Source of the DNA: Bacteroidota bacterium
Lineage (GTDB): Bacteria > Bacteroidota > Bacteroidia > NS11-12g > UBA9320
Assembly: GCA_013359235.1 (NCBI GenBank)
Contig: JABWCE010000007.1
Location: 90,609 to 142,953, forward strand
Length of the DNA: 52,345 nt
Direction: 5' to 3'
Part shown: one piece after another, positions 1,671 to 49,523 of the stretch
How positions within the stretch are numbered: position 1 is the stretch's first letter
How the letters are laid out: each line of letters opens with the position of its first letter
Program-made: the position numbers and the translations under genes
The notes under the pieces: generated by a model
Told to the model about the DNA's origin: nothing
Databases searched by the model: none
The model's input: only the letters and a program-made list of their open reading frames with translations

Positions 1671-1828
1671 AAATGCAAATCTACTGAAATTAAATCTTAT
1701 GGTAATAAAAATATAAAAAATTGCGTCTATAAATTGTAATAAAATAACAAAAAGTGCTAATTATTAGTTTGAGAGGGTGTATTTTTAAAAAAAATTTGAT
1801 TTATTTTGTAAACGATATTATAAAGTTT

Positions 1829-7772: not shown

Positions 7773-7788
7773 TTTTAAATTATAAATT

Positions 7789-8040
7789 TTAAATTGAATG
7801 AATTGAAATTTCGTAATATTCCATTACTTGATTGGCGAGAAGTTTTTTGCATGCTTCGTCAGCTTTTTGGAATGCTTCATTTTCGTTTAAGGCTTCTATT
7901 TCGAGAGAAATATGTTTTCCCACTCTTACGTTTGAAACTTGTGGAAGCCCAATTGCAGCCATACTTCCACTCACAGCCTTGCCTTGTGGATCGAGTAAAT
8001 TTTTGTGAGGCATTACATTTATTTCTGCTACATATTTCAT
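7789..8040 (-). CDS. purS: Phosphoribosylformylglycinamidine synthase subunit PurS
   Basis: An 83-residue protein. It reads MKYVAEINVMPHK, then LLDPQGKAV, then VRVGKHISLEIEA, the usual PurS pattern. PurS bridges the small PurL and the PurQ glutaminase in the FGAM synthase complex of purine synthesis. The frame extends upstream to 8067, but the ATG at 8040 gives the normal family N-terminus. Neither purL nor purQ is in the window. A good promoter match ends 5 bp before the ATG, so the mRNA may have almost no leader. It is first in the run to MBL-rhodanese and sucD. Confidence 0.93.
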   Translation of the reverse strand: MKYVAEINVMPHKNLLDPQGKAVSGSMAAIGLPQVSNVRVGKHISLEIEALNENEAFQKADEACKKLLANQVMEYYEISIHSI

Positions 8041-8045
8041 TACTG

Positions 8046-8076
8046 CAAAAATATAACTTTGTTGCATTTTCTCAAA
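8046..8076 (-). promoter_or_regulatory. Candidate Bacteroidota promoter for purS run
   Basis: On the minus strand TTTG (8076-8073) is followed after 19 bp by TATTTTTG (8053-8046). This fits the Bacteroidota primary sigma consensus TTTG / TAnnTTTG. The predicted start of transcription falls about 0-2 bp before the purS ATG at 8040. Confidence 0.5.
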
Positions 8077-8166
8077 TTCAACAATAGAAAAAGCTAAATT
8101 GAAATTATTTGGAACTTAATGTTAATTTTCATTCAAACGATTTAAAAATTTAAGCTTTTTGATGCT

Positions 8167-8200
8167 TTTGATTTACATCATTGTAAAAAAGAATAATTTG
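8167..8200 (+). promoter_or_regulatory. Candidate promoter for ferredoxin-korAB operon
   Basis: TTTG at 8167-8170 and TAATTTG at 8194-8200 form an imperfect Bacteroidota promoter (spacing 23 bp, longer than usual; one base short in the -7 box). The predicted leader to the ATG at 8236 is about 30 nt. Confidence 0.3.
8168..8181 (+). promoter_or_regulatory. FNR/CRP-family-like operator
   Basis: The sequence TTGATTTACATCAT matches the FNR consensus TTGAT-N4-ATCAA at 9 of 10 defined positions. It overlaps the candidate -33 element of the ferredoxin-korAB-hemerythrin operon. No regulator gene is in the window, and the consensus for this organism is unknown. Confidence 0.35.
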
Positions 8201-8235
8201 ATGTTATTTTGAAGCCATTAAAACTATTAAATAAT

Positions 8236-8583
8236 ATGGCTATAAAAATAACTGACGATTGTATCAATTGCGGGGCTTGCGAACCCGAATGTCCAAATGG
8301 AGCAATTTATGAAGGAGGAAGCGAATGGAGATTTTCTGACGGCACCGAACTTTCAGGCACTTTTGTATCAAAAAGCGGTATGAACGTAGATGCAAGTGAT
8401 GCTCAAGCACCCGTTTCAAATGATTATTATTATATTGTTACTGATAAATGCACAGAATGTGTAGGGTTTCATGACGAACCACAATGTGCATCGGTATGTC
8501 CTGTTGATTGTTGTTTGCCCGATGAAGACAATGTTGAATCAAAAGAAGAACTTTCGGCAAAAAAAGCATCATTACATCCATAA
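8236..8583 (+). CDS. 2[4Fe-4S] ferredoxin (Alvin-type)
   Basis: A 115-residue ferredoxin starting at ATG 8236 (an upstream in-frame TTG at 8209 is less likely). The first cluster motif is CINCGACEPECP. The second is CTEC-x8-CASVCP, with the 8-residue insertion typical of Allochromatium-type low-potential ferredoxins. About 35 residues lie between the two motifs, which is usual in the Bacteroidota form. It is 28 bp upstream of korA, so it is the probable electron carrier, or delta-like partner, of the 2-oxoacid:ferredoxin oxidoreductase encoded next. Confidence 0.94.
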   Translation: MAIKITDDCINCGACEPECPNGAIYEGGSEWRFSDGTELSGTFVSKSGMNVDASDAQAPVSNDYYYIVTDKCTECVGFHDEPQCASVCPVDCCLPDEDNVESKEELSAKKASLHP

Positions 8584-8611
8584 AAAAATTTATTCTCATT
8601 AAAATTATTAA

Positions 8612-10486
8612 ATGAATTCAGGCGTTGATTTTACAGAAAATGCTTCTGTAAGTGAAGAATTAGAAAGTGTTGTTGTACGATTTTCGGGTGATTCTGGCGA
8701 TGGAATGCAATTAACCGGTATGCAGTTTACAGATACCGCTGCATTACTTGGAAATGATTTAAGCACATTTCCCGATTATCCGTCAGAAATACGGGCTCCA
8801 ATAGGTACTGTAGCCGGTGTTTCGGGCTTTCAAGTACATTTTGGAAGTAAAGAAATTTACACACCGGGCGATAGTTTTGATGTGTTAGTTGCAATGAATG
8901 CAGCAGCACTTAAAGTTGATTTACCAAAATTGAAACGCGGTGGAATTATAATTGCAAATATTTCGGGTTTTGACAGAAAAAACTTAGGCCTTGCAAAATA
9001 TCCTGAAGGGGCTGACCCATTGAACGATGGAAGTTTAGACAATTATGTTGTGCATAAAATTGATATTTCAAAACACACAAAAGATTGTTTGATAGATAGC
9101 GGTTTGGGGACAAAAGAAATAGAGCGTTCGAAAAATATGTTTGTATTAGGTTTGTTATTTTGGATGTTTGACAAACCCCTTGAACACACAATAGAATTTA
9201 TTGAGAGCAAATTTGCAAAAAAACCCGAAATAGCAAAAGCAAATATCAAAACACTAAATGCCGGATATAATTATTGCGAAAGCACAGAAATTTTTATAAA
9301 CAGATTTAAAGTAAGCCCGGCAAAATTACCGGCAGGAGTTTACCGAAATATCACCGGAAATCATGCTACTGCTATTGGTTTAATCGCCGCTTCGGAAAAA
9401 GCTGAATTACCCTTGTTTTTAGGTTCGTATCCCATTACACCGGCTTCAGATATTTTACATGAACTTTCAAAATATAAAGCAAATGGAGTAAAAACTTATC
9501 AGGCAGAAGATGAAATTGCCGGAATTTGCTCTGCTATAGGTGCTGCTTATGTGGGTAATCTGGCTGTTACTACTACATCAGGACCAGGTATGGCTCTTAA
9601 AACCGAAGCAGCAGGACTTGCAACAATGCTCGAAATACCACTTGTGATAATAAATGTTCAACGTGGAGGACCTTCAACCGGTTTGCCAACCAAAACAGAG
9701 CAATCAGACTTGCTAATGGCAATGCACGGAAGACACGGAGAATCGCCACTTGTTGTATTAGCAGCTACCTCACCTTCTGATTGTTTTAATGTAGTTTACG
9801 AAGCTTGTAGAATTGCTATTGAACACATGACTCCCGTAATTTTTCTTTCTGATGGATATATTGCTAATGGCTCTGAGCCTTGGAGGTTTCCGTCAGGAGA
9901 TAGTTTACAAAAAATCAAAGTTTCATTCTTAAAATCACCAAATGGTGACAATGGAGAAATACTTCCATACAAAAGAGATGAAAAACTTGTAAGACCATGG
10001 ATAATTCCAGGTTCAAAAGGTATGGAACACAGAATTGGTGGACTTGAAAAAGAAAACGAAACAGGAAATGTATCTTACAATCATCACAATCACGAACTGA
10101 TGGTTAACCTTAGAGCAGAAAAAATAAACAAAATTGCCGATTATATTCCACTTGCCAAGCCAGATACCGGAAATGAAAAAGCCAAACTGTTAGTTTTAGG
10201 TTGGGGTTCAACTTACGGTACAATTAAAACAGCCGTTAGAGAAGCTATAAAAGAAGGATACGATGTTGCACATATTCATCTTAAATACATTAATCCTTTC
10301 CCTAAAAATCTGGGAGAATTGCTTAATTGCTATGATAAAGTTTTAATTCCCGAAATGAATAAAGGACAACTTTTACAACTAATCAGAGCTAAATACATGA
10401 TAGATGCAAAAGGTTTTTCTAAAGTTCAGGGATTACCTTTTACAACAATAGAAATTAAAGAAAAAATTGCAGAAATGCTAAGTTGA
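8612..10486 (+). CDS. korA: 2-oxoacid:ferredoxin oxidoreductase, fused gamma-alpha subunit (likely 2-oxoglutarate)
   Basis: A 624-residue protein. Residues about 20-205 form the gamma domain ([14 protein letters not shown], then [11 protein letters not shown]). The alpha/pyrimidine-binding domain follows ([49 protein letters not shown]). The C-terminal domain resembles domain II. With KorB it oxidises a 2-oxoacid to acyl-CoA plus CO2 and reduces ferredoxin, or runs in reverse. The gamma-alpha fusion, the paired small beta subunit and the nearby sucD point to 2-oxoglutarate; pyruvate or branched-chain oxoacids remain possible. Confidence 0.93.
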
Positions 10487-10498
10487 AAATAATAAAAA

Positions 10499-11539
10499 AT
10501 GGAATCAGTTACAGAACAAAACATTAAACTTACATCAAAAGATTTTTCGTCAGACCAAGAAGTAAAATGGTGCCCTGGTTGTGGAGATTATTCAATATTA
10601 AAACAAGCTCAAACAATTTTTCCGGATATAAATGTACCTAAAGAAAATTTAGTTTTCATTTCGGGAATAGGCTGCTCATCAAGGTTTACATATTATATGG
10701 ACACTTTCGGAATGCACAGTATTCATGGGCGTGCAGCAGCAATTGCTTCAGGGGTAAAAGCTGCCAATCCTGAGCTAAGTGTTTGGATAGTATCAGGCGA
10801 TGGCGATTCTTTTTCAATTGGAGGTAATCATCTCATTCATTCATTAAGAAAAAATTTTAACTTCAATTACTTAGTTTTCAACAATCAAATTTATAGTCTT
10901 ACTAAGGGACAATATTCACCAACCTCAGAAAAATCAAAAATAACAAAATCTACACCTTACGGCTCTATCGAAGACCCATTTAACCCTCCCGAACTTGCAC
11001 TTGGAGCCAATGCAGCCTTTGTTTCGCGTACTATTGACCGCGACCCCAAACACATGCAAATGGTATTGCGTAGAGCAAATGATTTTAAAGGTACTTCGTT
11101 TGTAGAAATATATCAAAATTGCCCGGTTTTTAATGATGGAGCATTTTTTATATTCACCGAAAAAGAAACTAAAAAAGAAGAAGCTTTGTTCCTGGAACAA
11201 GGAAAACCTTTGATTTTTGGGCAGAATGACGAAAAAGGGATAATGATTACAGACAGTTTTACATGCAAAATAGTAAATTACAAAGAAGAAGGAATTGCCC
11301 CCGAAAATCTTTGGATACACGATGAAAAAAACAAAACCAAAGCGTTTTTACTTTCTCAATTTGTAAATATGGAACAAAATGGCGAAATGTTTCCAAGACC
11401 ATTCGGCATATTATATGCCGTTGAAAGACCTGTTTACGAAGAAAGTTTAATTAGTCAAATAAATGCTATACAAGCTAAAAAAGGGAAAATGACACTTGAC
11501 CGCATTTTGTCGGGAGATAAAACATGGGTAATTGCATAA
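10499..11539 (+). CDS. korB: 2-oxoacid:ferredoxin oxidoreductase, beta (TPP-binding) subunit
   Basis: A 346-residue beta subunit. It has the motif WCPGCGDYSIL near the N-terminus, GIGCSSR, and the thiamine diphosphate/Mg motif GDGDSFSIGGNH followed by NNQIYSLTKGQYSPTS. This pattern is characteristic of KorB-type subunits. It starts 12 bp after korA and ends 4 bp before the hemerythrin gene, so the four genes from ferredoxin to hemerythrin are almost certainly one transcript. Confidence 0.94.
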   Translation: MESVTEQNIKLTSKDFSSDQEVKWCPGCGDYSILKQAQTIFPDINVPKENLVFISGIGCSSRFTYYMDTFGMHSIHGRAAAIASGVKAANPELSVWIVSGDGDSFSIGGNHLIHSLRKNFNFNYLVFNNQIYSLTKGQYSPTSEKSKITKSTPYGSIEDPFNPPELALGANAAFVSRTIDRDPKHMQMVLRRANDFKGTSFVEIYQNCPVFNDGAFFIFTEKETKKEEALFLEQGKPLIFGQNDEKGIMITDSFTCKIVNYKEEGIAPENLWIHDEKNKTKAFLLSQFVNMEQNGEMFPRPFGILYAVERPVYEESLISQINAIQAKKGKMTLDRILSGDKTWVIA

Positions 11540-11543
11540 TATT

Positions 11544-12071
11544 ATGAATCCGGTAACATTATTAGTACAAGAACACAACATTATTAAAGAAGCAGTAAAT
11601 ATTGCTAAAAAATTAAGAATCAAACTTGGTGATACTGAGCATTACGAAAGTATAGCACGCCAGCTTATAGATTTTTTCAGAAATTATGCCGATACATATC
11701 ATCATCAAAAAGAAGAGTTAATTCTTTTCCCAGAAATGGTTAAAGCAAATGAAATGCTTGAACAAGGCATTGTATTCGAAATGTTTGAAAATCATAGTGA
11801 TTTTAGAGATACAATAGCTAATATAATTTCATTGCTCGACAATAAAAACTACGAAAAAGCTCAAGACAAACTTGAACAGTATTGCGAAGCTTTGCTCGAC
11901 CATATTGCTGTAGAAGATGACGAAGTTTTTGAAATTGCAAATTCATTGTTTGACGACAATGAACTTGAAAAAATATATTTTAGATTTATTGATTCTGACT
12001 CTGACTTGGGACAGCAAAGAAAAGAAGAACTTAAAAATAATCTCGAAGCACTATCTAAAAATCTTGAATAA
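11544..12071 (+). CDS. Hemerythrin-domain (HHE) protein
   Basis: A 175-residue all-helical protein. The start is ATG 11544; an upstream TTG at 11532 would overlap korB. Candidate di-iron ligands are in the usual order: H in QEHNII, H and E in YHHQKEE, H in ENHSDF, and H and E in LLDHIAVEDDEVF. HHE proteins bind O2 or protect and repair iron-sulfur enzymes (compare YtfE/Ric). Being last in an operon for an oxygen-sensitive ferredoxin oxidoreductase, a protective or O2/NO-sensing role is attractive but is inference. It converges on the phosphatase gene with a 7-bp gap. Confidence 0.88.
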   Translation: MNPVTLLVQEHNIIKEAVNIAKKLRIKLGDTEHYESIARQLIDFFRNYADTYHHQKEELILFPEMVKANEMLEQGIVFEMFENHSDFRDTIANIISLLDNKNYEKAQDKLEQYCEALLDHIAVEDDEVFEIANSLFDDNELEKIYFRFIDSDSDLGQQRKEELKNNLEALSKNLE

Positions 12072-12078
12072 TTGAGTT

Positions 12079-12699
12079 TTACCACAAATGCTCGATAGAG
12101 TTTTCCAATAAAATTTCAAATTCTGTTTCTGTTTTTTGCTTTAAAATATATAGGCAAAAGTTGCTGTGTTTAAAATCTTCCATTTTACTCAATGGCAATT
12201 TTAACATTAAACAAAGAAAACTTCTCAATGCTCTTCCGTGCATACAAATTAGTATTGTATTTTCATTGTGTTTTTTCATAATTTTTTCAAAACCTGCCTT
12301 TTGCCTATTTGCCAATTTTGCCGGCGATTCGCCATTTTCAACACATTTGTCAAGAAACCCGCTTTTCCAGTCTTCAATCATTTGGTTGTAATGAATTTGA
12401 TTTACTTTAGTTGGCATTGCTCCTTCCATCATTCCCCAGTTTATTTCATTCAACTCGTGCATTTTTTCATATTCAAAACCATCATTTATAAAAGGAAATA
12501 CACTTTGATAAGTACGGTTGAGCTCGGAAATATATATTTTATCAAATTTTATATGTCTATATGCCAAATGAAAAAGTTTAGCTTGTAATAATCCGTTTTC
12601 GTTCAGGTTTGAATTTATACCACTTCCTTGAATAATTCCGTTTTTATTATAATCGGTTTCTCCATGTCGTATCAAATAAATTGTTTTTTTTGTAGTCAA
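12079..12699 (-). CDS. Histidine phosphatase family protein (phosphoglycerate mutase-like)
   Basis: A protein of about 206 residues with the catalytic LIRHGET motif at the N-terminus and the second histidine in CMHGRALRSFL. I start at TTG 12699 because the family begins a few residues before RHGE. The frame runs back to an ATG at 12852, but that would overlap the divergent thioesterase gene by 143 bp and add a sequence with no family resemblance. The family includes cofactor-dependent mutases and small phosphatases such as CobC; the substrate here is unknown. It converges with the hemerythrin gene. Confidence 0.85.
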   Translation of the reverse strand: MTTKKTIYLIRHGETDYNKNGIIQGSGINSNLNENGLLQAKLFHLAYRHIKFDKIYISELNRTYQSVFPFINDGFEYEKMHELNEINWGMMEGAMPTKVNQIHYNQMIEDWKSGFLDKCVENGESPAKLANRQKAGFEKIMKKHNENTILICMHGRALRSFLCLMLKLPLSKMEDFKHSNFCLYILKQKTETEFEILLENSIEHLW

Positions 12700-12709
12700 A
12701 ATTATAAAT

Positions 12710-13132
12710 ATGAAATTTAACTGCAAAAATATTACACCCGAGTCATTAAATAAAAAATTAAATGACACACTTGCATCGCATCTGGCAATGGAAATAACTG
12801 AAATAGGCAATGATTTTGTAATAATGAAAATGCCTGTAGATAAACGCACCATGCAATATTTCGGAATACTAAACGGAGGGGCAAGTTTAGCACTTGCCGA
12901 AACCGTGGGCAGTATAGCATCAAATCTTGCAGTAAATTTTGAAAAAAATTGTATTGGATTAGAAATTAATGGAAACCATATAAAAGCAGTATCAAAAGGA
13001 TGGGTTTATGCAAAAGCCAGCCCTATTCACTTGGGTAAAAGCACTCATGTATGGCAGGTACTTATTACTGATGAAAACAAAAATACTGTATGTATTTGCA
13101 GGCTTACCATGGCTATTTTTGATAAAAAATAA
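12710..13132 (+). CDS. Hotdog-fold acyl-CoA thioesterase (PaaI/YdiI-like), candidate DHNA-CoA thioesterase
   Basis: A 140-residue single-domain hotdog protein. The active-site region reads GILNGGASLALAETVGS, with the catalytic Glu in ALAET, and ends with a VCICRLTMAIFDK strand. PaaI/YdiI/MenI relatives hydrolyse aryl-CoA or DHNA-CoA. The next gene, 3 bp downstream, is an isochorismate synthase, so a role in menaquinone synthesis (1,4-dihydroxy-2-naphthoyl-CoA hydrolysis) is the best guess. Start ATG 12710. Confidence 0.85.
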   Translation: MKFNCKNITPESLNKKLNDTLASHLAMEITEIGNDFVIMKMPVDKRTMQYFGILNGGASLALAETVGSIASNLAVNFEKNCIGLEINGNHIKAVSKGWVYAKASPIHLGKSTHVWQVLITDENKNTVCICRLTMAIFDKK

Positions 13133-13135
13133 TAT

Positions 13136-14122
13136 ATGAAATACCATGATTTTATTTATTGGAAGCCCGCTAGCACTAATGAAGTTTATACAATTATAAA
13201 ACCAAAAATTTTTGAAATTTCAATAGATAAAATTGGTAAAACAGGCTTTGTATTTTTTCCTTTCAACAAAGAAAATAAAGGTATTTTATTTGAAGGGAAA
13301 ATTGAAAGAACCGAAAAAATAAATGTTTCAAATTTTGAAAAAAATATTTCATTTACAGACCATGATATTTCGAAAAAAGAATATGTTGAACTTGTGAAAA
13401 AAGCCGTTAAAGCTATAAAAAACGGCAATTTTGATAAAGTAGTTCATGCAAGGTGTAAAACAATAACCTTACCCAATAATTTCAGCCTTGAGAATTTATT
13501 TATTTCACTTTGCAAAAACTATAAAAATTCATTAGTATATTGTTTAAAAGCCTATGATGACTTGTGGATAGGGGCAACTCCCGAATTACTTTTGAAAAAT
13601 GATAATAGCAAAATGAAAACTTTTGCCCTTGCTGGCACAAAAAAAAATACCGAAAATTATGAATTTGGCGATAAAGAAACAAATGAACAAAAATTAGTTA
13701 AAGACTATATCGTAGAAGTATTAAAAAATAACGGTTCAGAAAATATAGAAATAGAAAACAGTAAAAATTTAAAAAACGGCAATCTAACTCATATTATTAA
13801 TGAAATAAATTTCAGTAGTAATAAACCTTACCAATTACTCATTCAACTGCATCCAACGCCGGCAGTTTGTGGTATGCCTTATAAAAAATCATTTGATTTT
13901 ATTAAAAATTATGAGCAACTAAATCGTTCGTTTTATTCAGGCTTTTTGGGTAAAATTGATTCAATGAATAATTTTGATTTTTGGGTAAATCTCAGATGTG
14001 CAAAAGTTTTAAAAAATCAAATAAGATTATTTGCTGGTGCTGGCATAACTGCTCAAAGTAACCCAGACAAAGAATGGAGCGAAACCGAAAATAAAATGAA
14101 AATCATTGCAGATTTTTTATAA
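13136..14122 (+). CDS. menF: Isochorismate synthase
   Basis: A 328-residue chorismate-binding enzyme, shorter than most MenF/EntC (about 390-450) mainly at the N-terminus. It has GATPELLL, FALAGTKK, LHPTPAVCGMP and the C-terminal signature FAGAGITAQSNPDKEWSETENKM. It converts chorismate to isochorismate, the first step to menaquinone. The LHPTPAVCG and AGAGI motifs favour isochorismate synthase over anthranilate or aminodeoxychorismate synthase. It is co-transcribed with the upstream hotdog thioesterase (3-bp gap). The other men genes are not in the window. Confidence 0.9.
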   Translation: MKYHDFIYWKPASTNEVYTIIKPKIFEISIDKIGKTGFVFFPFNKENKGILFEGKIERTEKINVSNFEKNISFTDHDISKKEYVELVKKAVKAIKNGNFDKVVHARCKTITLPNNFSLENLFISLCKNYKNSLVYCLKAYDDLWIGATPELLLKNDNSKMKTFALAGTKKNTENYEFGDKETNEQKLVKDYIVEVLKNNGSENIEIENSKNLKNGNLTHIINEINFSSNKPYQLLIQLHPTPAVCGMPYKKSFDFIKNYEQLNRSFYSGFLGKIDSMNNFDFWVNLRCAKVLKNQIRLFAGAGITAQSNPDKEWSETENKMKIIADFL

Positions 14123-14175
14123 TTACAATTTAAACTTTGAAAAGCTAAACATGTAGCAAGCACTTTTTTAGGAGG

Positions 14176-14571
14176 TTACACAAACTTTTCGGATATTTTT
14201 TGAGCCATTTTTTTTAAAGTTTCCGAATCCATTTTGAGCTTTGGTTTTGAAAAATTAATATCATCAATTCTGTGTAATGGTATTAAATGGATGTGAACAT
14301 GAGGAACTTCTAATCCAATAACTGCTACTCCAACTTTTATGCAATCAACAGTCTTTTTTATTGCTTTTGCTACTCTTTGAGCAAATTTATTGAGGTCAGC
14401 AATTTCGGAAGGCTCAAGGTCAAAAATATAATCAACTTGTTTTTTTGTAATCACAAGCACATGAGCTTCTTTCAAAGGCATAATATCCAAAAAAGCAAGA
14501 TGATTTTCGTCTTCGGCTACTTTGTAGCATGGAATTTCGCCTTTTATAATTTTTGTAAAAATGCTATCCAT
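14176..14571 (-). CDS. HIT family protein (Hint-like)
   Basis: A 131-residue histidine-triad protein. The triad is H91, H93, H95 (HVHIHLIPLH). The N-terminus MDSIFTKIIKGEIPCYKV and FLDIMPLKEAHVLVITK are typical of Hint/PKCI-like nucleoside phosphoramidases or hydrolases. It is 3 bp downstream of greA on the same strand, so the two are probably co-transcribed, a common arrangement in Bacteroidota. Confidence 0.95.
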   Translation of the reverse strand: MDSIFTKIIKGEIPCYKVAEDENHLAFLDIMPLKEAHVLVITKKQVDYIFDLEPSEIADLNKFAQRVAKAIKKTVDCIKVGVAVIGLEVPHVHIHLIPLHRIDDINFSKPKLKMDSETLKKMAQKISEKFV

Positions 14572-14574
14572 TTT

Positions 14575-15048
14575 CTAAGGTAATGATATTTCAAGAATTT
14601 CAAAACTTATAGTGCCTGCTGGAATTTTTACCTCTACTTTATCTCCAACTTTTTTTCCCATCAGTCCCAATCCAATAGGCGATTTAGCTGATATTTTACC
14701 TGTTTTTACATCAGCTTCTTTTTCAGAAACTATTGTGTAGCTCACTTTTGCATTAGTTTTAAAGTTCATCACTGTAACTTTGGTAAGTACACCTACCTTG
14801 CTCAAATCAACCTTTGACTCGTCTAAAATCCTACTTTCGGCAAGCATAGCTTTTAGTTTTGCGATTTTCATTTCAAGCATACCCTGAGCTTCTTTTGCAG
14901 CATCATATTCTGCATTTTCAGATAGATCTCCTTTTTCTCTTGCTTCTGCAATTTGAGCACTAATTTTAGGTCTTTCTACTTTTTCTAAGTTATCAATTTC
15001 CTTAACTAATGCTTCGTAGCCTTCTTTTGTCATATAATTTATTGCCAT
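14575..15048 (-). CDS. greA: Transcription elongation factor GreA
   Basis: A 157-residue GreA/GreB protein. The coiled-coil N-domain carries the acidic tip GDLSENAEYDAAKE, which reaches into the RNA polymerase secondary channel. The C-domain is FKBP-like (SPIGLGLMGKKVGDKVEVKIP). It stimulates transcript cleavage in backtracked complexes. The ATG is at 15048. Upstream lie a strong hairpin (15080-15110) and a TATATTTG box, just after the end of the PorV-like gene. Confidence 0.97.
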   Translation of the reverse strand: MAINYMTKEGYEALVKEIDNLEKVERPKISAQIAEAREKGDLSENAEYDAAKEAQGMLEMKIAKLKAMLAESRILDESKVDLSKVGVLTKVTVMNFKTNAKVSYTIVSEKEADVKTGKISAKSPIGLGLMGKKVGDKVEVKIPAGTISFEILEISLP

Positions 15049-15079
15049 GTCTTAAATATTTTAATGTTATTATAAAACA

Positions 15080-15110
15080 AATTGCACCAACCGATGTGGC
15101 TGATGCAATT
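15080..15110 (-). terminator. Hairpin between porV-like gene and greA (terminator or leader attenuator)
   Basis: On the minus strand two 13-nt arms pair with a 5-nt loop, using two G-U wobbles; the plus-strand version has two mismatches, so the structure suits minus-strand RNA. A U-rich tail (TTTGTTTTAT) follows. It lies 27 bp after the PorV-like stop codon and 31 bp before the greA start. It most simply ends the TonB/T9SS/PorV transcript, but any read-through into greA would have to pass it. Confidence 0.6.
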
Positions 15111-15113
15111 ATG

Positions 15114-15121
15114 CAAATATA
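15114..15121 (-). promoter_or_regulatory. Candidate -7 box for greA
   Basis: TATATTTG on the minus strand exactly matches TAnnTTTG. No TTTG is visible at the expected upstream distance. Transcription would start inside or just before the hairpin at 15080-15110. Confidence 0.3.
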
Positions 15122-15137
15122 GTTAAATTTTGGTTAT

Positions 15138-16208
15138 TTACTCTTCTGATGCCCCTAACGACATTTTAATTCCAATAGAATGAGAACCGCTAAAAGGATT
15201 AGAGTCGCGATATGAATAATCTAATGCAAATTTATTACCGCTATTTTTAAATGGTAATTCGTATGTTAAACCTCCGCATAGTCCGGTATATGCAGAACGA
15301 CGAGTTGAATAATCAAAAATGCCTTTACCATATTCATATCCTGCTCTTATCATAAACATATTTTTATAATTGTACTCAAACCCAAGTGTTATCTGGTTTT
15401 GAGAAAATGCATTATATGTAAAATTAGCGTGTGTTGTAAGTTTATGAAATTTTGTTTCAGCAGTTTTATCTAAATACATATCATAAGCACCGCCAATATT
15501 CATTAAAGCAGGTATATTAAACTTAGCAATTCTCTGATTAACTCCTGATTCTTGATTATTATCAGGATTTATTCTTTTAATTGTTATTCCATCTCCAGAG
15601 TATTTCACATCTGGTCCAATGTTTCTAATTGACACTCCAAAATGAATATCATTTGTATTTTTCCAACTTGTAAGATATTGAATACCTGCATCAAAAGCTA
15701 CACCTTGCATTTTAAGGCTCGAAACATTTTCAGAAAATACTCTAAGCAAAACCCCACCATATATTCTCTCGGTAAATTTGCGGCTATAGCCAAAACCGAG
15801 ATTTGTAAGACGTGGCGAAAAAGTACCTAATCCACCATCAGGTTGTTCTACTGTAGTTCGTGTTATTTCGCCAAAACTAATTGAAGAAATACTAAGACCA
15901 AGAGCATTATCATTACCAAGATTGTGAGCAATTCCAAAATTGCTTACACTCAACCCTGACCCGGTCAACCAATTTGTTTGAGAAAAAACAAAATCAGTTT
16001 TTACAGTATGAACAAGACCACCTAGATTCATATACATTGACTCTACACCTTTAATTGAACTTTGTGCTGACCATCCAAGTCCTGACGAACGTGCCCAACC
16101 ATTAACTACAAGTTGAGTTCCGCTTGCTTGCCCACCTCTGTCAGGGTTTCCGGCAAAGCTGTTTAAACTTAATATACTAAATGCTATAATTATTGATTTT
16201 AATTTCAT
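15138..16208 (-). CDS. PorV/PorQ-family outer-membrane beta-barrel protein
   Basis: A 356-residue protein with a signal peptide (MKLKSIIIAFSILSLNSFAG) and alternating beta-strand pattern to the C-terminus. The layout (GGQASGTQLVVNG, then GVESMYMNLGGL, then GLSISSISFGEI, then GLGFGYSRKF-like strands) matches PorV/LptO-type, FadL-related barrels that shuttle T9SS cargo. PorV is needed for type A cargo in characterised systems. It is the last gene of a minus-strand operon after a TonB receptor and a giant T9SS cargo (24-bp gap), so it may be a dedicated shuttle for that cargo. Confidence 0.85.
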   Translation of the reverse strand: MKLKSIIIAFSILSLNSFAGNPDRGGQASGTQLVVNGWARSSGLGWSAQSSIKGVESMYMNLGGLVHTVKTDFVFSQTNWLTGSGLSVSNFGIAHNLGNDNALGLSISSISFGEITRTTVEQPDGGLGTFSPRLTNLGFGYSRKFTERIYGGVLLRVFSENVSSLKMQGVAFDAGIQYLTSWKNTNDIHFGVSIRNIGPDVKYSGDGITIKRINPDNNQESGVNQRIAKFNIPALMNIGGAYDMYLDKTAETKFHKLTTHANFTYNAFSQNQITLGFEYNYKNMFMIRAGYEYGKGIFDYSTRRSAYTGLCGGLTYELPFKNSGNKFALDYSYRDSNPFSGSHSIGIKMSLGASEE

Positions 16209-16232
16209 GTTGAAGTTTTTATGATTAATATT

Positions 16233-19200
16233 TTAAAATGAATCTAAATCCAATTCTCTTATTACGCCCATCCATTTAATTACTTTTTCACCTATACCTG
16301 GTGCCTTTACGTGTATTAAATAAATGCCACTGGCAATTGGTACTTTTGCATCATTTTTAAGATTCCATTCTAATTCTGTATTCGAGTCGTCTTTTTTAAT
16401 TCGTCGAACAAGCGTACCATCAACGGTATAAATTGAAATATCGCACCTTTCGGGTAGGTTTGTTATTTTAACTTTGTTGTCAACCGGGCTGGTTTCGTAA
16501 CTTGAGTAGGCATAATAAGGATTTGGAACAATATTTATAATGTCAAGTGCATTTTTTCCATTTTCAGAAGAAATTTCGTTAAATATACTATTTGTATTAA
16601 ATGTATATCTCGGATTATCGTAATTTGATGAGTTGTCCATAGTTTTAAAATAGCGGTATGGTTTTTTCACTCTTATTTTAAATCTTACCTCTGAAGGGGG
16701 AACAGGCATACCATTTTTTTCACTTAAAGTGTATCCTGTGTTCAAAAAAGCAGGGACAACCCACATACATTGATACATAACCTTATTTATAGCAAGTGTT
16801 CTGTTAAAATCTGATGTATTTCCGTCAATTGAATTTAAAAGATTAAAATAGGCATTTCCTTCATCGTAATTTGGCAAAAATGGCTGCGAAGTACCTGTGC
16901 CCGAATATGACCCCATGATATAAATATAATGTCGTCCACCATTGGCTAATATTCCCGAACCATTTCCATAAAAGCCGGCATCAGATGTTGGGTTCCATTT
17001 TAAATCTCTACCATTGTTGCTAAATTGGCGTGAATCTTCTCCGAAAATAATATTTAATCTCTCTCCTGTTTCTACATTTACTGCATATCCCGGGAACCAA
17101 CTTCTTCCTTTTTCTGATGTAATTTCATTTCCGTTAATGTCAATAGAATTATGCTTTCTTAAATGAAATTTTCTCGCTTTGCCTTGAGATAAAATTGAGT
17201 CATCACTCATTTCAAGAACACAAACTTTTGACCATTTTGTAATATCGGGGGTTATTACCAAATCTACACTTGAAAGATGGTTCAATCCCCAAGTATTATT
17301 AATAGGTGTACCATCATAAGCCACTCCTTGTAATGAAGTTGCAGGAATTTGTGCAGAGCCTCCACTGTTTATATACCTTGAAGCTAATCTATATGGTCCA
17401 ATTCTTCCTTCCCATAATTTTTCATAAGAATCAAATGGATCAATAGAATAACCATTTATTGCAAAATCGTGAATTGTAGGGTCTTTAAAATTGTCAGATT
17501 TACCATTATTGCCTGAATGTATCCAATTCCAGAAATAAATACCATCAACATCTCTCATAGCTGTAAGCCATTGTTTCCCGGTTACTGCAAATGTAACTTC
17601 TGCACCAAGCGAGCCATTAGTTTCATCAAAATCTGAATTTCCAGGATCTAAAATCTGGTTAATTGAAACTGCAAGTCCCCAGTCTAAAGCACCTTTTTTT
17701 CTGTAATATTTTGTTGCTGATTCTGTAATTAATTGTTCGTAATTGTTGTTAATAGTAGTTTCTGAATATACTGTATCATTAAGCCCATTTTGATTTTTCT
17801 TAACTAAAATCCAATTTGTAACATGTCCTTTTACTCCAGATTCTCTTTTCTTTATTGATGAAGAAATAGAATCTTTGTTTTCAAGCAATACTAGTTCAAA
17901 TTCTCCATTAGGCACTTTTAAAGGGTCAACGACCGAAACTTTTACAGGTCCCATTCCAATTTTATATGTTGGATTTTTCATAAAATATGGTGGATTGCTT
18001 ATTATTTCAAGCTCACTTTCAGGAGTTAAATCAAGATAATTTCCTCCATTTCCACTTCCTTCCATCCTTGTTATGTTGGGTGTATTGCCATAACTTGACT
18101 GTATTTTTGAACCACTGTATTTTGGCTCGGTATTGCGAGGTGAAGCAATTAATTTTTTGATAAATCTACCTGCAAGATATTGATCTTGTGTGCTATTTGG
18201 CTCGGCAGAATAAGATAAAATTATATAATAATATTTTTTAAAATTTACAAGTGTTTTATTTGATCCTGTAGCAAAAGCATCGGTTTTTAACGAAAATGAA
18301 TGAACTAAGCCTTTGTTTGGAGCATCTATCATTAATTTTGGTATTCTTTGTCCGAGTGAGGCATCAAATGGTTTATTTACAAGACGTATGATATTATTTT
18401 TCAAATCGCAGGTAAATACTTCACGTGCTTTATCAACATCTTCTAAATCTCCGGTACCGACTGAACCGTTTAACAACTGAAATACACGGTATCCTTCAAA
18501 AGCATATACCTGATTTTTATTGTTTTCGTCTAAAATTGTGTCTTTAAAACTTTCTATCTTTTTTGTGTTGCCGAATGTAAATACCAGTTCATTATCAAGT
18601 TCGTTTATTACCACATCCGGAGCCTCAGGTCCGTTTACAGGTTTAAAACAATTGTTGAATAAGGTTTGTGCCTTGTCACTTGCTAGTTTTAATAGAGTTA
18701 AAGAGCCATCAGCACCTCCCGAACTTGTTTTTGCCCAAACAACACCAACAGTAAGTTTATTAACTGCCCCAGGTTTTAGTGTAAAAGGACCGCTTGTTTG
18801 CAAAAATCTCCTGTCATTTGGTTGGTTGCCTGCAGTACGTTCATTCCAGTTGCCTGTTATTGTAGAATCTGTATCAAACGGGAAAAGAAAATTGGTACAT
18901 TTAAAAACTGCATCTCTTCCATTTTTGTTATCTGCCGTCATACATTTACCATTTGTCCATCTTCCGGTAAGGTAATAATAATAATGTATAGGTAATCGCG
19001 GATTACCATAAGGCGACCAGTCGTTGTCATAATATACAAACCTACTCATACCCAATTCAAAAATTGTATCTCTTCCGTTGATGGTTGTATCTTTTTTGGG
19101 TCCTTCAAAAAAGTCAACCCCAACTGAAGGAGGGTTTAATCCATATCCCAAAATTCCCTCGTCATTATCATCACCATTATAACAAAACCCAAGACTTCTT

Positions 19201-20147
19201 TTTACATCGCATCCTACATAATCGTCTCTATAATTGCCTAAATCTGCATCGACCCATTCGCCAAAATATGTATCGTATAAAGATTGAAAGCCACGGTTAA
19301 CTATACGTGTTGTATAAAAGGTCATATTGTTTATTTCGTCATTTGTTGCGTAAGCAAAAGCAGTAGTATGAAGCTCAAGCCCTATTGGGTCAGCACCGGA
19401 TTCTGCATGAAGATTTCCTTTATCATTATAAACAAAATACAACATTTTATCAGGTTGATCTTCAGGACTGTTGTCTTTAAGTTTTTTACCGCGACATTCA
19501 TTTTGCAAAACTGGATAATCGCCAGATATCGGATTATAAATTCCGTCATTATTATAATCAAAAAATGCTGCCAATGTAGGTTGATTAATACTTGTGCGAC
19601 CTGGCCAATTACTAATATCTTCAGTTAATGTGGGAGTACCATTTGTAATATTATTATAATGGTCAATAATGTCTTTTCTGTTTATTTTATAAATATTATC
19701 CCATTGTTTACATACTGATTCATCGGTATTGCCGGTAACAGGATCAAGTGGTCCGGGCCAAAAATCAGAACCACCTTGACGGTAAGTCATTGCAGCGAGT
19801 TTTAGATTTCCTGATCCACCTTTTTGAGAATAGCCTCCTACCCATATTGCACCCGAAAACAATGAATGTTTTTTGATGCTGTTTTGGTCATCTATCTTGG
19901 GTATTTCATATTTAGGATTTTTTAAATCCCACCACATATCGCCACCGTTTAGTATTTTGGTTCTTACGTTGTTCACGTCAAGATCGGCACTTGCTGTAGC
20001 TGGTTCGCAGCTTGCGGCGTATTTCATTAATTTATGACTTTTTTCTACAGGTTTAATATTTTTTTCTCCTTCGTTTTCTTTTGCTTTCAAGTTTATTGAA
20101 AAAAGAAGGGCAAATGATACAATTGCTGTTTTTATATTCAGTTTCAT
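16233..20147 (-). CDS. Giant secreted protein (1304 aa) with a conserved T9SS sorting domain
   Basis: A signal peptide (MKLNIKTAIVSFALLFSINL) is followed by a very long extracellular body. It is rich in Trp, Asn and Gly, with motifs such as SGAIWVGGYSQKG and FFDYNNDGIYNPISGDYP (calcium-binding-like). The C-terminus reads IVPNPYYAYSSYE, ITNLPERCDISIYTVDG, then IASGIYLIHVKAPGIGEKV and a final KWMGVIRELDLDSF. I recognise this end as a conserved form of T9SS C-terminal domain in Bacteroidota proteins encoded beside TonB receptors. No enzyme domain is recognisable. It sits between the TonB receptor (23-bp gap) and the PorV-like gene (24-bp gap). Confidence 0.82.
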   Translation of the reverse strand: MKLNIKTAIVSFALLFSINLKAKENEGEKNIKPVEKSHKLMKYAASCEPATASADLDVNNVRTKILNGGDMWWDLKNPKYEIPKIDDQNSIKKHSLFSGAIWVGGYSQKGGSGNLKLAAMTYRQGGSDFWPGPLDPVTGNTDESVCKQWDNIYKINRKDIIDHYNNITNGTPTLTEDISNWPGRTSINQPTLAAFFDYNNDGIYNPISGDYPVLQNECRGKKLKDNSPEDQPDKMLYFVYNDKGNLHAESGADPIGLELHTTAFAYATNDEINNMTFYTTRIVNRGFQSLYDTYFGEWVDADLGNYRDDYVGCDVKRSLGFCYNGDDNDEGILGYGLNPPSVGVDFFEGPKKDTTINGRDTIFELGMSRFVYYDNDWSPYGNPRLPIHYYYYLTGRWTNGKCMTADNKNGRDAVFKCTNFLFPFDTDSTITGNWNERTAGNQPNDRRFLQTSGPFTLKPGAVNKLTVGVVWAKTSSGGADGSLTLLKLASDKAQTLFNNCFKPVNGPEAPDVVINELDNELVFTFGNTKKIESFKDTILDENNKNQVYAFEGYRVFQLLNGSVGTGDLEDVDKAREVFTCDLKNNIIRLVNKPFDASLGQRIPKLMIDAPNKGLVHSFSLKTDAFATGSNKTLVNFKKYYYIILSYSAEPNSTQDQYLAGRFIKKLIASPRNTEPKYSGSKIQSSYGNTPNITRMEGSGNGGNYLDLTPESELEIISNPPYFMKNPTYKIGMGPVKVSVVDPLKVPNGEFELVLLENKDSISSSIKKRESGVKGHVTNWILVKKNQNGLNDTVYSETTINNNYEQLITESATKYYRKKGALDWGLAVSINQILDPGNSDFDETNGSLGAEVTFAVTGKQWLTAMRDVDGIYFWNWIHSGNNGKSDNFKDPTIHDFAINGYSIDPFDSYEKLWEGRIGPYRLASRYINSGGSAQIPATSLQGVAYDGTPINNTWGLNHLSSVDLVITPDITKWSKVCVLEMSDDSILSQGKARKFHLRKHNSIDINGNEITSEKGRSWFPGYAVNVETGERLNIIFGEDSRQFSNNGRDLKWNPTSDAGFYGNGSGILANGGRHYIYIMGSYSGTGTSQPFLPNYDEGNAYFNLLNSIDGNTSDFNRTLAINKVMYQCMWVVPAFLNTGYTLSEKNGMPVPPSEVRFKIRVKKPYRYFKTMDNSSNYDNPRYTFNTNSIFNEISSENGKNALDIINIVPNPYYAYSSYETSPVDNKVKITNLPERCDISIYTVDGTLVRRIKKDDSNTELEWNLKNDAKVPIASGIYLIHVKAPGIGEKVIKWMGVIRELDLDSF

Positions 20148-20170
20148 ATTTCTTACCTTTTTTTTAATTT

Positions 20171-23100
20171 TTATAATGTAAACCTCAAACCTAATCTAAT
20201 CAATCGCGGAGTACTGTAATTGTATGGGTTATTTACACTAATGTTGTATAAATCTATAAATGATTGTTGACTTACTTGTTGAGCAATTACCTGCTGACCT
20301 TCGGGTGAAGACAAAAATCCATCATCGTTGGGTAATCCTGAAAAAGCATAAACTCCTTCAACATTTTTTCTGTTGAAAATATTTTGAACCCATAGAAATA
20401 CAGTAATTTCTGTTACATTTATCCTATTGTCTTTTATTTGTTTTTTCTTAATTTCGAATGATTTGCTGAAATTAACATCAGCTTTGAACTGCCAAGGAAG
20501 ACGTGACCCAAAAGGATTACCTTTTATCTGGCTTCTGGTAACGGTACCAAGTGCAGCCTGTGCAGTAGATGTAGGACTTGCATTAGCTGTATAAGGTGAC
20601 CCCGAACGTGCTAACACTATAAAACTTGCATTTGAATTTTCAAATACACGCTTACCTTTCCATATTGGTCCATTGTAGTCTTTTCCACCTTCATAAGTCC
20701 ATGTAAATGTTGAATTAAAATTATGTCTAAAATCTACATCGAGTGGGTAAAGTGATCTTAAATTAGGCTGATTTGCCTGAATAAGTGCAGCTTGCGAATT
20801 TATATTAGAACCGGTACCATCAGCAAAAAGCAGGGTATAATTTGCTGATAATTGGAAATTTTTTACACCTCTGTATTGATACTCTGCTCTAAAAGCTTTA
20901 TTAGTTGAAAAATCAATATTTGAATAGCTTGTGTATGATACAGGATAGGCTTGATTGTATGCAAACTGTCCAAAGTCATTTCTGGTTTCAGAATAAGATG
21001 CTATAATGCTTATTGATGAAACTTTGCTTAATTTTTGTTTATAGCCAAGTTCATACATTGTTTTAACTCTGGGTTTTAATGCCGAATTTGCAATGAAACG
21101 ACTTTGGTCTGATTCTAATAAATAATATGAACTTATTGGACAAAATGTAGCTCCGTCAGTAGGGCGTTGGGTTAATACATCATAGTTTGCAAAAAACAAT
21201 GCTTCTTTATTTATAGGAAAAGAAAACCAAATTCGCGGTAATATATTTATTTGTGGCTCGTAATCTTTAAATGCTTCTTTGGCAATATCTTTGTTTGAAT
21301 AATCTACAAGATAAGGCTGTATCACACTGTTATTAGATAATTGAGCTATTATTTCAGGGTTTTCAACCTCTACTCCACTTGAGTTGTACCAAGTGTTTCC
21401 ATTTCTGTAACCTACAACTTTTGTTGGGCTTTTTGCACTATTTACATATATTGCATAGTCATTATCTATATTATCAGGATGGTTGATTTTAACACTATTT
21501 ATTTCGCTTACTTCTCCAACAGTTTTAATGGGATAAAGTGAATATGGATCTTTAAGAGTTGGTTGGTTTGCATCGTATCTTTCAATCCTCAAACCAACTC
21601 TGAAAATCATATCTTTTATAGCAAATTTATCTTGAAACCATGCAGCACTATATATTGGTGCAAAAGAGCCTAAACTTCTTTTTTCTTTATCATTCAAAAA
21701 GTCATTTATACCAAATTTTTTTCTTGTTCTGTTACCCAAATAATCATAACCGTAATAACTCACATACTGGTTATTTTTATTAAATAAATCATCTGCATTA
21801 AACATATCAAGGCTAAAATAATCGGGCGATAATGAATTTATATCAATGTATGATGTTTCGGTGATTTTGTTGCCATATACATCTACAGCACCATCGGCAA
21901 TTAGTTTTGCTCTGAGGTTTTTATCAAAAGTTGATTGTTGGTCTTTATCTAATCTCACATTATATTTTACAGTATCTAAAAATCTTCCCAGTTCGTCATA
22001 AGATTGAATACTATTTAAAATGTAATCGCCTTGTGTAATTTTATCAAGGCTTGAAATATGTTTGTTAGCAAGTTGAGGCATTAATACCCATAAACTATTT
22101 GCACTTATCCCATACGAACTTGCAATATTTTGTTCGTAAGTCATACCAAATTGAAGGTCGTGTTTGTTTTCTTTCTTTTTACCTGCATTAATTGATGCTT
22201 CGCCAATAGCATAAATTGAAAATCTTTCATATTGTCCTTTGCTGTAACCTGAAATTATTGTTCCCGGGTTGTACCAAAGAGAATATGTATTTGGCAGGTT
22301 GTATCCGTTTAATAGTCCGTTAAATGTTGAAATCATACCATCGCTGGTTGCTCCACGAAGCCCGAATGATTTAAAATAATCAAAAGCATTTTCGGTATAT
22401 TTGCTACGTAACGGGTTTTGGTCACCTGCTTCATAAGTAATCATTGTATCTTTAAATCCTGTAAGTTCCCAATATCCTTGACGTGTAACCGTGTCGTTTT
22501 TGGCTGTTTTAGAGTTGTAAACAATATATTTCTGTGTCTTATCCTGCCAGTCGTAAACAGGCGCTCTGTAATGTGTGAATTTTCCCAAATATCCGTAATC
22601 AAATATTTTATCTTTATGAACATTGTGTTCTGATTTGCTAATGCTGGTTTGGTAATCAACTCTTATTGAATAAAAAGCATCTGATACCAGAGGAGTTTTT
22701 GCGTCTTTTTCTTTTTTGGTACCGCTTTGATAGCCTATTTTTTGGGTATATCTTAAATACGCTCTATAAGTTTGATTTGTGCTAAGATTGTATTCTTCGG
22801 AGTTTAACAATGAAGAATAGTAATTGTAACCTCTGGCTTTTTGATAACTTCCACTTGCAAAAAACGTTAAAACTGATTGTTTTGATGGGGTAAACTCAAA
22901 TTTTGTATTTACAACACCTAAGTAGAAGGGAACATTTTGCCTTGCTTTATTTAATACTAAATCGTTTTTTGTAAGGTAAGATGAAGTAGGAATAAATCCA
23001 CCACCATTAGGGTTTTCGGTTAAAGGATTATTTTTAATATTTTCAAGTACATCATCTTTTACAGCCCACGAGCCCATTACAGTTGGCGAATTGTCTTTTT

Positions 23101-23956
23101 GATACTCTAAATGTCCTGAAATATTATACCCAAACAAAACTCTTTCTTTATCGCCTCCACCTATATTTATAACTTTTAAAGGTCCCGAAAAAGCCATTTC
23201 CAATGTATTATAATGCCATTTGTCAAACAAACTTGATGTTACATATTCAAAGTACTTTGAATGTAATCTACTTGGTCCTTTAGTGGTCATATTTATAGCT
23301 CCTCCGGTAAGGTCGCCAAACATTGCAGGAACCCCACTTTGAATAAGGTCTATTTGCTCTACACCAATTGTAGGCACTGTAGAATTTCCAATTACAGGTA
23401 CACCATCTATAAAAATTCTGGTACCATCAGTACGATTTCCCAAAAATGAAATACTTCCGCCTTTTACGTTTACACCTGATGACGTATTTGCAATTGCACC
23501 AATACCTCTTTGTGGCATTTTCATTATATCTTTTGATGTAATAGTATTTTTGTTTTCATCTTCTTCTACAAGTTTTTTCTTGTAATCAATTACTGTTACC
23601 TCGTCAATATCAACTCCTTTATCGCTTACTTCTTGTACTTCAATATTCCAAAAAGTAATTGACCCGCTTGTTACATTTATTTTATTGGCTACGTATTTTT
23701 TGTAACCAACATAAGTAACTTCTATTGAATACTCTCCGGGATCAATTGTTTTAAGATAATAGTTGCCATTTTCGTCACTTGCGGTAGATGTTTTTACTAT
23801 TCCCTCTTTTTTTAGTACTACTGTAGCATATTCAAGTGCCGAACGTGTTTTTTTGTCTGTTACTTTTCCTCTAATTTCTCCAAAATTTGATTGTGAGAAA
23901 GCAAATGATGAAATAGAAAGTAAAATTAAAACTCCAAAGTAATGTTTCAATCGCAT
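20171..23956 (-). CDS. TonB-dependent outer-membrane receptor with carboxypeptidase-regulatory N-domain
   Basis: A 1261-residue protein. It has a signal peptide, a carboxypeptidase D regulatory-like domain (about 25-110: GEIRGKVTDKKTRSALEYA), a plug domain (about 130-250, including GGSISFLGNRTDGTRIFIDG and GVPAMFGDLTGGAIN), and a long beta-barrel ending in LIRLGLRFTL. Such receptors use TonB/ExbBD energy to take up ligands or, in some cases, to assist surface proteins. No SusD-like gene is present. It is first in the operon with the giant T9SS protein and the PorV-like barrel; the ligand is unknown. Confidence 0.93.
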   Translation of the reverse strand: MRLKHYFGVLILLSISSFAFSQSNFGEIRGKVTDKKTRSALEYATVVLKKEGIVKTSTASDENGNYYLKTIDPGEYSIEVTYVGYKKYVANKINVTSGSITFWNIEVQEVSDKGVDIDEVTVIDYKKKLVEEDENKNTITSKDIMKMPQRGIGAIANTSSGVNVKGGSISFLGNRTDGTRIFIDGVPVIGNSTVPTIGVEQIDLIQSGVPAMFGDLTGGAINMTTKGPSRLHSKYFEYVTSSLFDKWHYNTLEMAFSGPLKVINIGGGDKERVLFGYNISGHLEYQKDNSPTVMGSWAVKDDVLENIKNNPLTENPNGGGFIPTSSYLTKNDLVLNKARQNVPFYLGVVNTKFEFTPSKQSVLTFFASGSYQKARGYNYYSSLLNSEEYNLSTNQTYRAYLRYTQKIGYQSGTKKEKDAKTPLVSDAFYSIRVDYQTSISKSEHNVHKDKIFDYGYLGKFTHYRAPVYDWQDKTQKYIVYNSKTAKNDTVTRQGYWELTGFKDTMITYEAGDQNPLRSKYTENAFDYFKSFGLRGATSDGMISTFNGLLNGYNLPNTYSLWYNPGTIISGYSKGQYERFSIYAIGEASINAGKKKENKHDLQFGMTYEQNIASSYGISANSLWVLMPQLANKHISSLDKITQGDYILNSIQSYDELGRFLDTVKYNVRLDKDQQSTFDKNLRAKLIADGAVDVYGNKITETSYIDINSLSPDYFSLDMFNADDLFNKNNQYVSYYGYDYLGNRTRKKFGINDFLNDKEKRSLGSFAPIYSAAWFQDKFAIKDMIFRVGLRIERYDANQPTLKDPYSLYPIKTVGEVSEINSVKINHPDNIDNDYAIYVNSAKSPTKVVGYRNGNTWYNSSGVEVENPEIIAQLSNNSVIQPYLVDYSNKDIAKEAFKDYEPQINILPRIWFSFPINKEALFFANYDVLTQRPTDGATFCPISSYYLLESDQSRFIANSALKPRVKTMYELGYKQKLSKVSSISIIASYSETRNDFGQFAYNQAYPVSYTSYSNIDFSTNKAFRAEYQYRGVKNFQLSANYTLLFADGTGSNINSQAALIQANQPNLRSLYPLDVDFRHNFNSTFTWTYEGGKDYNGPIWKGKRVFENSNASFIVLARSGSPYTANASPTSTAQAALGTVTRSQIKGNPFGSRLPWQFKADVNFSKSFEIKKKQIKDNRINVTEITVFLWVQNIFNRKNVEGVYAFSGLPNDDGFLSSPEGQQVIAQQVSQQSFIDLYNISVNNPYNYSTPRLIRLGLRFTL

Positions 23957-39158: not shown

Positions 39159-39164
39159 ATCTTT

Positions 39165-49492: not shown

Positions 49493-49523
49493 TTTTCTAA
49501 ATTAAATTAAGTTTTATTATTGA

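Follow-up and report, generated by a model that had tools for sequence, protein, structure and literature searches.

A TonB-dependent transporter gene linked to a PorZ-like type IX secretion cargo and a PorV-family barrel in Bacteroidota: a probable uptake module

In the 52,345-nucleotide stretch of DNA analyzed here (the window; contig JABWCE010000007.1 of a Bacteroidota bacterium), three consecutive genes encode a TonB-dependent transporter (T), a large cargo protein of the type IX secretion system (T9SS; G) and an outer-membrane barrel of the PorV/PorQ family (V). What does a unit made of a receptor, a secreted protein and a barrel of this kind do? We consider it fairly probable that the module is a TonB uptake unit, in which a T9SS-delivered surface partner would be held on a dedicated PorV-family barrel and would replace the SusD lipoprotein. 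The data show the linkage and co-divergence of the genes, their restriction to SprA-bearing genomes in the sample and the class of the G C-terminus, and structure models predict the folds of T and G; that G docks on V, touches T and delivers a substrate for import is what we infer. The module spans positions 15138-23956 of the minus strand with gaps of 23 and 24 bp (Table 1), and the composition and close spacing given in a sequence-only reading of this DNA were confirmed. Whole-protein sequence searches of the PDB with T, G and V returned nothing useful.

T contained a PF13715 domain (52.8 bits), and the Pfam plug model remained below threshold (20.7 against a cut-off of 23.9 bits). The AlphaFold2 model of T (residues 62-1261; pLDDT 84.7, pTM 0.81) matched PirA (Z 31.8, 489 aligned of 499, 2.3 Å) and BtuB (Z 31.0, 524 aligned of 549), as well as the BtuB-BtuG and XusA receptors. 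Judged by this predicted fold, T is clearly a TonB-dependent transporter with a plug inside a large beta barrel. The NCBIfam library includes SusC models, and a scan of T at E 1 returned only a weak siderophore receptor model and no SusC-type family; SusC was also absent among the fold matches listed for T, which carries no weight. No SusD domain was detected in G or V, the genes next to T, by family-model scans. T therefore has neither of the two marks of a SusC/RagA receptor, a SusC-type sequence and an adjacent SusD, and the earlier description of a TonB receptor without SusD proved correct.

The C-terminal domain (CTD) of G was compared with known sorting domains. In a Foldseek search with the AlphaFold2 model of G (residues 105-1304; pLDDT 84.5, pTM 0.69), PorZ (5m11) ranked first (E 9.6e-6) and was the sole match at E <= 0.001, and structural comparison of the CTD with PorZ (VIA) gave Z 10.3 over 92 aligned residues at 28% identity. 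The PorZ model NF052228 matched G at model positions 675-751 only (36.6 bits against a cut-off of 260), which leaves G outside the PorZ equivalog. The CTD alone passed the type A model TIGR04183 (26.4 against 23 bits), the whole of G fell just under it (21.6), and PF18962 stayed below its cut-off on the CTD (24 against 27). Among 40 CTDs of the G family (the window's and 39 of 138 others listed), the PorZ model matched all 40 and TIGR04183 matched 38 at E 0.01; for the window's G, the PorZ model performed better than the general type A model. The type B model TIGR04131 was not among the seven NCBIfam families matched by these CTDs, which do not qualify as type B, and weak CHU_C (Pfam) matches appeared in five of them. 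At the same threshold the PorZ model matched none of 26 control CTDs from cargos that are not middle genes of a triad (0/6, and 0/20 from the window's genome), of which 20 had been chosen by the type A model and six by a CTD profile or as neighbors. Three of four other triad cargos also matched PorZ best; the fourth matched PorU best, and not PorZ. A G CTD profile searched against the PDB placed PorZ (E 0.0013) and PorU (0.018) ahead of FlgD. These two were the only T9SS proteins in its list; the CTDs of RgpB and HBP35, whose structures an abstract gives as solved, did not appear there. As passages in PMC8545088 and PMC10202324 describe it, PorZ is a carbohydrate-binding protein whose CTD is not cut off and whose anchor is a PorV-family barrel. 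By sequence, the G CTD is of the PorZ class, and the class suggests that G may be retained, uncleaved, on a barrel.

The strongly conserved C-terminus singled out in the sequence-only reading was also found, since about eight residues (RELDLDSF in the window) beyond the usual CTD end were kept in the loci fetched via G searches (alignments of 62 and of 40 G proteins). When the cargo tails of 34 of 135 triads were compared, the extension was missing in the seven cargos listed for later triads, even though the G N-terminal profile matches five of them. As for the body of G, its first region aligned with TxGH116 (VIA Z 13.8, 226 aligned, 3.5 Å) in the predicted fold, which resembles a beta-supersandwich domain, and its second region with the phage lambda tail tip protein (Z 11.1, 96 aligned, 2.4 Å). 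Only a fold is seen in this model, and it hints at sugar binding. Pfam and NCBIfam scans detected no enzyme domain in G, as had been anticipated.

V scored 139.5 bits against the PorV/PorQ family model NF033709 (cut-off 90), in line with the barrel assignment made beforehand. More specific names were rejected: PorV (NF033710, 59.6 against 250), PorQ (NF033711, 64.3 against 220) and PorP/SprF (PF11751, 20 against 22.3 bits), and the PorV2 model was not reported for V in the NCBIfam scan. The window's genome carries four PorV-family genes, namely PorV, which adjoins PorU on contig C44 (470 bits), PorQ elsewhere (339 bits), PorV2 elsewhere, which passes its own model, and V; it also has SprA, PorU and at least 132 type A sorting-domain matches (E 0.001). 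In a tree of 94 sequences, which covered 61 of the 135 triads, the 35 V whose triads had been obtained by G searches grouped in one clade (99/92), and a separate 23-member clade (98/95) held the PorV and PorQ of the window's genome and no triad V. The long PorV2 branch was placed, with uncertainty, next to the clade of G-type V. The position of V outside the PorV/PorQ clade and the PorZ-like CTD of G support a dedicated shuttle or anchor, in line with the earlier suggestion that the unit has its own cargo shuttle. An iterated V profile (187 matches, probably drift) was dropped for a stricter one.

We then asked how general this gene order is. Among 392 genomes of the phylum, a G relative (E 1e-10, some matching only part of G) was found in 163. 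Of these, eight belong to the window's class (105 genomes sampled, with the window's own among the eight) and 155 to other classes (287 sampled). Two samples of loci were fetched. The first comprised 60 regions picked across families among the listed matches, and the second the 80 best of 574 confirmed loci. With contig edges set aside, the first sample had T next to G in 55 of 59 loci with room and V next to G in 54 of 57; in the second, these counts were 68 of 75 and 66 of 75. The median intergenic gaps were 21-39 bp. In a count over 141 loci, the gene directly before G was T in 121 and the gene directly after it was V in 119, which is above chance. Because a greedy caller of open reading frames (ORFs) masked some true genes with antisense or overlapping ORFs where loci were GC-rich, triads were counted from all ORFs. 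Neither T nor V was present at L099, L126, L131, L143, L153 and L172; further exceptions were the split loci L164, L166, L169 and L171, together with L042, L047, L084 and L092. Unlinking of the genes in most relatives had been named beforehand as the result that would speak against a unit, and linkage was instead near universal in the fetched loci. SprA was present in all 163 genomes with a G relative, and G in none of the 73 genomes without SprA (Fisher p 4e-20, without kinship correction). Because G relatives occurred only with SprA in this sample, the module is not self-contained and needs the general T9SS. Thus, the proposal of a self-contained uptake or display unit stood in part: uptake gained indirect support from the T fold and from polysaccharide-degradation genes near Rhodothermus-like relatives, and self-containment did not hold.

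The triad is also wider than G. PorV-family genes numbered 6-22 in 14 genomes of other classes and 3-6 in five of the window's class. From about 52 non-top PorV-family genes in three genomes, 20 were examined, picked by family score and not by their neighbors, and 18 were the third gene of T-cargo-V triads (V of L222 was taken from family-search coordinates); the remaining two were T and V without cargo (L208) and V alone (L211). The cargos were either G-like or shorter (661-805 aa). Inside four genomes with 5-9 triads each, T, cargo and V diverged in step (distance correlations r 0.41-0.97), with p < 0.05 in 18 of 20 tests.

Hints of a substrate came from Rhodothermus-like genomes. In one of them (G008, identified as Rhodothermus marinus by the agreement of its locus L237 with PMC9530828), nine of 10 non-top PorV-family matches were fetched, and seven of the nine loci held triads. 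Three of the seven lay near same-strand polysaccharide genes, a count without background rate: PL6 and an alginate lyase at L237, two GH130 and a solute-binding protein at L234, and GH13 at L238. In G003, of the same genus, GH3 lay near triad L241 and GH10 near L231, which had been fetched because of GH10. Four triads of these two genomes are therefore near alginate lyase, GH130, GH13 or GH3 genes. Eleven G008 control regions were screened by profile for T, cargo and V alone, and none of the three was among their 118 called genes; the enzyme linkage is therefore given here without a background control. Glycans may be the substrate of some Rhodothermus copies. A figure legend in PMC9530828 annotates tonB, a T9SS type A sorting protein and a PorV/PorQ protein consecutively in the Rhodothermus marinus alginate locus, and the legend of the Porphyromonas hmu heme-uptake gene maps names a T9SS-sorting gene and a PorV/PorQ-family gene (PMC12106395), so heme-uptake regions may be a further substrate context for such modules. 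Apart from these annotations, no analysis of the module was found among the best-ranked literature results, a search that did not cover subscription journals and preprints. Outside Bacteroidia, the commonest neighbors of triads were GWxTD-domain proteins (15 of 109), and PIG-L deacetylases made up 5 of the 109.

In the working scheme that we favor, Sec would carry G across the inner membrane, and its CTD would then take it through the T9SS translocon SprA in the outer membrane. V, the co-operonic barrel, would then receive the CTD as PorQ receives that of PorZ and keep it uncleaved; because it would both take and keep the CTD, V could serve as shuttle and as lasting anchor. Exposed on the surface, the body of G would cover or flank T and act as a binding lid, T would import the G-bound substrate with TonB energy, and G on its barrel would do the job of the SusD lipoprotein in SusCD pairs.

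Most likely, the module joins two known kinds of system, the SusCD-like pairs of receptor and partner and the T9SS pairs of cargo and barrel. Like SusCD, BtuB-BtuG and XusA-XusB, it combines a TonB-dependent transporter with a dedicated surface partner, and some of its relatives are multi-copy and located in polysaccharide loci; unlike in those systems, the partner is a T9SS cargo with a barrel of its own and not a lipoprotein, and no SusC-type family was reported for T. The PorZ-PorQ pair, as portrayed in the passages cited above, likewise places a T9SS protein with an uncleaved CTD on a PorV-family barrel, and its CTD is the closest to that of G. It differs in that G matches only the CTD part of the PorZ model, its model had no beta-propeller match among those listed, its CTD is about eight residues longer, V is not PorQ, and a TonB receptor belongs to the T-G-V operon. 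SprB-SprF and other type B pairs, in the portions of PMC9143113 and PMC12618676 that concern them, show a cargo gene followed by its own barrel gene, with a dedicated shuttle and surface anchor, whereas the G CTD is type A or PorZ-like, V is of the PorV family and not PorP/SprF, and the operon begins with a TonB receptor. The R. marinus alginate locus (tonB-hypA-hypB) shows the same triplet order (compare L237), but its cargo is of the shorter, non-G type, and the genes stand only in the figure legend, where they are not discussed as a module (PMC9530828).

Several observations weigh against this explanation. Taken together, the triad V do not form a single clade, because the 26 V other than those fetched through G are scattered over several groups. 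Two tests of V against cargo-body distances were not significant (p 0.064 and 0.078), and co-divergence could come from block duplication instead of contact. G stood alone in part, as 7 of 75 named loci with room had no T and 9 of 75 had no V, and two stand-alone G came from isolates that also carry a full triad (L099/L100 and L126/L128). The selection of control CTDs may favor ordinary CTDs. The supersandwich resemblance is one of fold only, at 8% identity and with no significant Foldseek match (E > 0.001). For 109 neighbors of triads from a mixed set, the 25 commonest of 124 families included neither a glycoside hydrolase nor a lyase family, a list without background count. No sugar or other substrate genes were found by Pfam near the window's triad among 18 other window genes (not all), and the same scan detected no carbohydrate-active enzymes, so the cluster here does not qualify as a polysaccharide utilization locus, whereas those of some relatives in Rhodothermus-like genomes do. 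Finally, the triad tends to keep a fixed chromosomal place in Bacteroidia, between housekeeping genes; over the 141 loci of all classes, a GreA-like gene lay at +2 in 62, a HIT gene at +3 in 59 and a 2-hydroxyacid dehydrogenase gene at -2 in 34.

These points leave room for other explanations. V might be a dedicated shuttle only, passing G to PorU for CTD cutting, with G released or linked to anionic lipopolysaccharide and T independent though co-transcribed. We regard this as rather unlikely. The G CTD does pass the type A cut-off, PorV-type shuttling is the known type A cargo route in the relevant portion of PMC12618676, and the genome has PorU, PorV and PorQ; but one PorV set against so many type A matches makes a private barrel odd for routine cargo, the G CTD matches the uncleaved PorZ class, unlike the 26 controls, and T is as strictly kept in the gene order as V. 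Alternatively, T could act in export or surface assembly of G, as the TonB-dependent transporter Oar is needed for PopC secretion in Myxococcus (PMC6434023), and T does precede the cargo in most loci. An export role seems improbable, given that G has a T9SS CTD, that its relatives were found only with SprA, that some Rhodothermus triads lie near polysaccharide breakdown genes, and that the T model matches import receptors, though the same fold would fit Oar.

The fixed site in Bacteroidia, the single G match in five of the eight Bacteroidia genomes with G and the lack of substrate genes found beside the window's triad would all suit a housekeeping surface structure or sensor, such as an adhesin, a coat or an environmental sensor, in which T senses or stabilizes. 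Related triads are multi-copy, and some lie near polysaccharide breakdown genes, as expected of uptake modules, and T has a predicted import-receptor fold; a housekeeping role is accordingly one to which we give little credence. That V is a FadL-like channel for hydrophobic compounds, with G and T as auxiliary binders and no role for the T9SS, appears very improbable, since the PorV/PorQ family model accepts V, and G beside it ends in the kind of T9SS CTD that docks on PorQ or PorV; the points in its favor are that FadL-type barrels carry hydrophobic molecules (as stated in part of PMC12611786) and that a sub-threshold FadL-family protein adjoins V of triad L237.

A recent study states, in the portion concerned, that type A CTDs are all recognized by PorV and that type B cargos have private barrels (PMC12618676). 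The module points to PorV-family barrels private to PorZ-like CTDs; private lid-holding barrels, if true, would revise the statement that all type A CTDs rely on PorV, and private barrels may also explain the expansion of the PorV family in other classes. It also suggests a route by which Bacteroidota other than Bacteroidia could assemble uptake complexes of the SusCD kind out of secreted proteins. The chances seem evenly balanced that this is a third general uptake architecture, ancient, multi-copy and widespread beyond the well-studied Bacteroidia, with a TonB transporter and a non-lipidated, T9SS-delivered lid permanently on a private PorV-family barrel, the CTD class marking a docking clamp and not a disposable export tag. 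The R. marinus alginate and GH13-linked loci offer cultured cases in which receptor, putative lid, barrel and candidate substrate could be studied together.

Table 1. Features of the T-G-V module in the window
Feature	Positions	Strand	Basis
T: TonB-dependent transporter, 1261 aa, N-terminal CarboxypepD_reg domain	20171..23956	-	ORF; PF13715
G: T9SS cargo, 1304 aa, three recognizable domain regions	16233..20147	-	ORF; AlphaFold2 model
Beta-supersandwich-like region, G residues 105-503	18639..19835	-	resembles N-terminal part of GH116/GH94/GH65 enzymes, fold only
FN3-like region, G residues 504-671	18135..18638	-	VIA; weak Foldseek matches to FN3 domains
T9SS CTD, closest to PorZ CTD, G residues 1196-1304	16236..16562	-	NF052228, TIGR04183, Foldseek
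About 8 extra residues (RELDLDSF) past usual CTD end	16236..16259	-	alignments
V: PorV/PorQ-family outer-membrane barrel, 356 aa	15138..16208	-	ORF; NF033709
Terminator-like hairpin with T run, 3' of V, 5' of GreA-like gene	15080..15110	-	consensus scan, weak

Within the window, V is followed by the hairpin, a gene judged by eye to be GreA-like and a HIT gene, and the upstream neighbor of the module is a 2-hydroxyacid dehydrogenase gene. Six terminator-like sites were found in the region against 4.7 in shuffled sequences, so the hairpin after V is weak evidence. A classical type B pair at 48026-52325 (-), in which a PorP/SprF-OmpA fusion lies downstream of a PKD-CHU_C cargo (TIGR04131, 64.4 bits), provides a natural comparison for the PorV-type pair, and another protein with a type B (CHU_C) secretion signal (667 aa) is encoded at 1754-3757 (+). 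The genes at 35020-39998 (-), a ResIII restriction-type helicase and a DNA methylase with a Bro-N protein at the end, resemble a type III restriction-modification system.

Some G relatives showed unusual arrangements. At L069, three tandem G-like genes of 892-908 aa (7784-16181, -) had no T or V beside them. Elsewhere in the window's genome, a 501-aa protein (L002, 1312-2817, +) was 29% identical to G residues 100-437; no T or V was present among the two ORFs listed in this 3.9-kb locus, and the protein matched no NCBIfam family. On contig PACT01000037.1, two G copies with 83% protein identity lay in opposite orientation (L169/L171), one with T and without V, the other with V and without T, a pattern that two triads broken up by an inversion, or by an assembly join, would leave.

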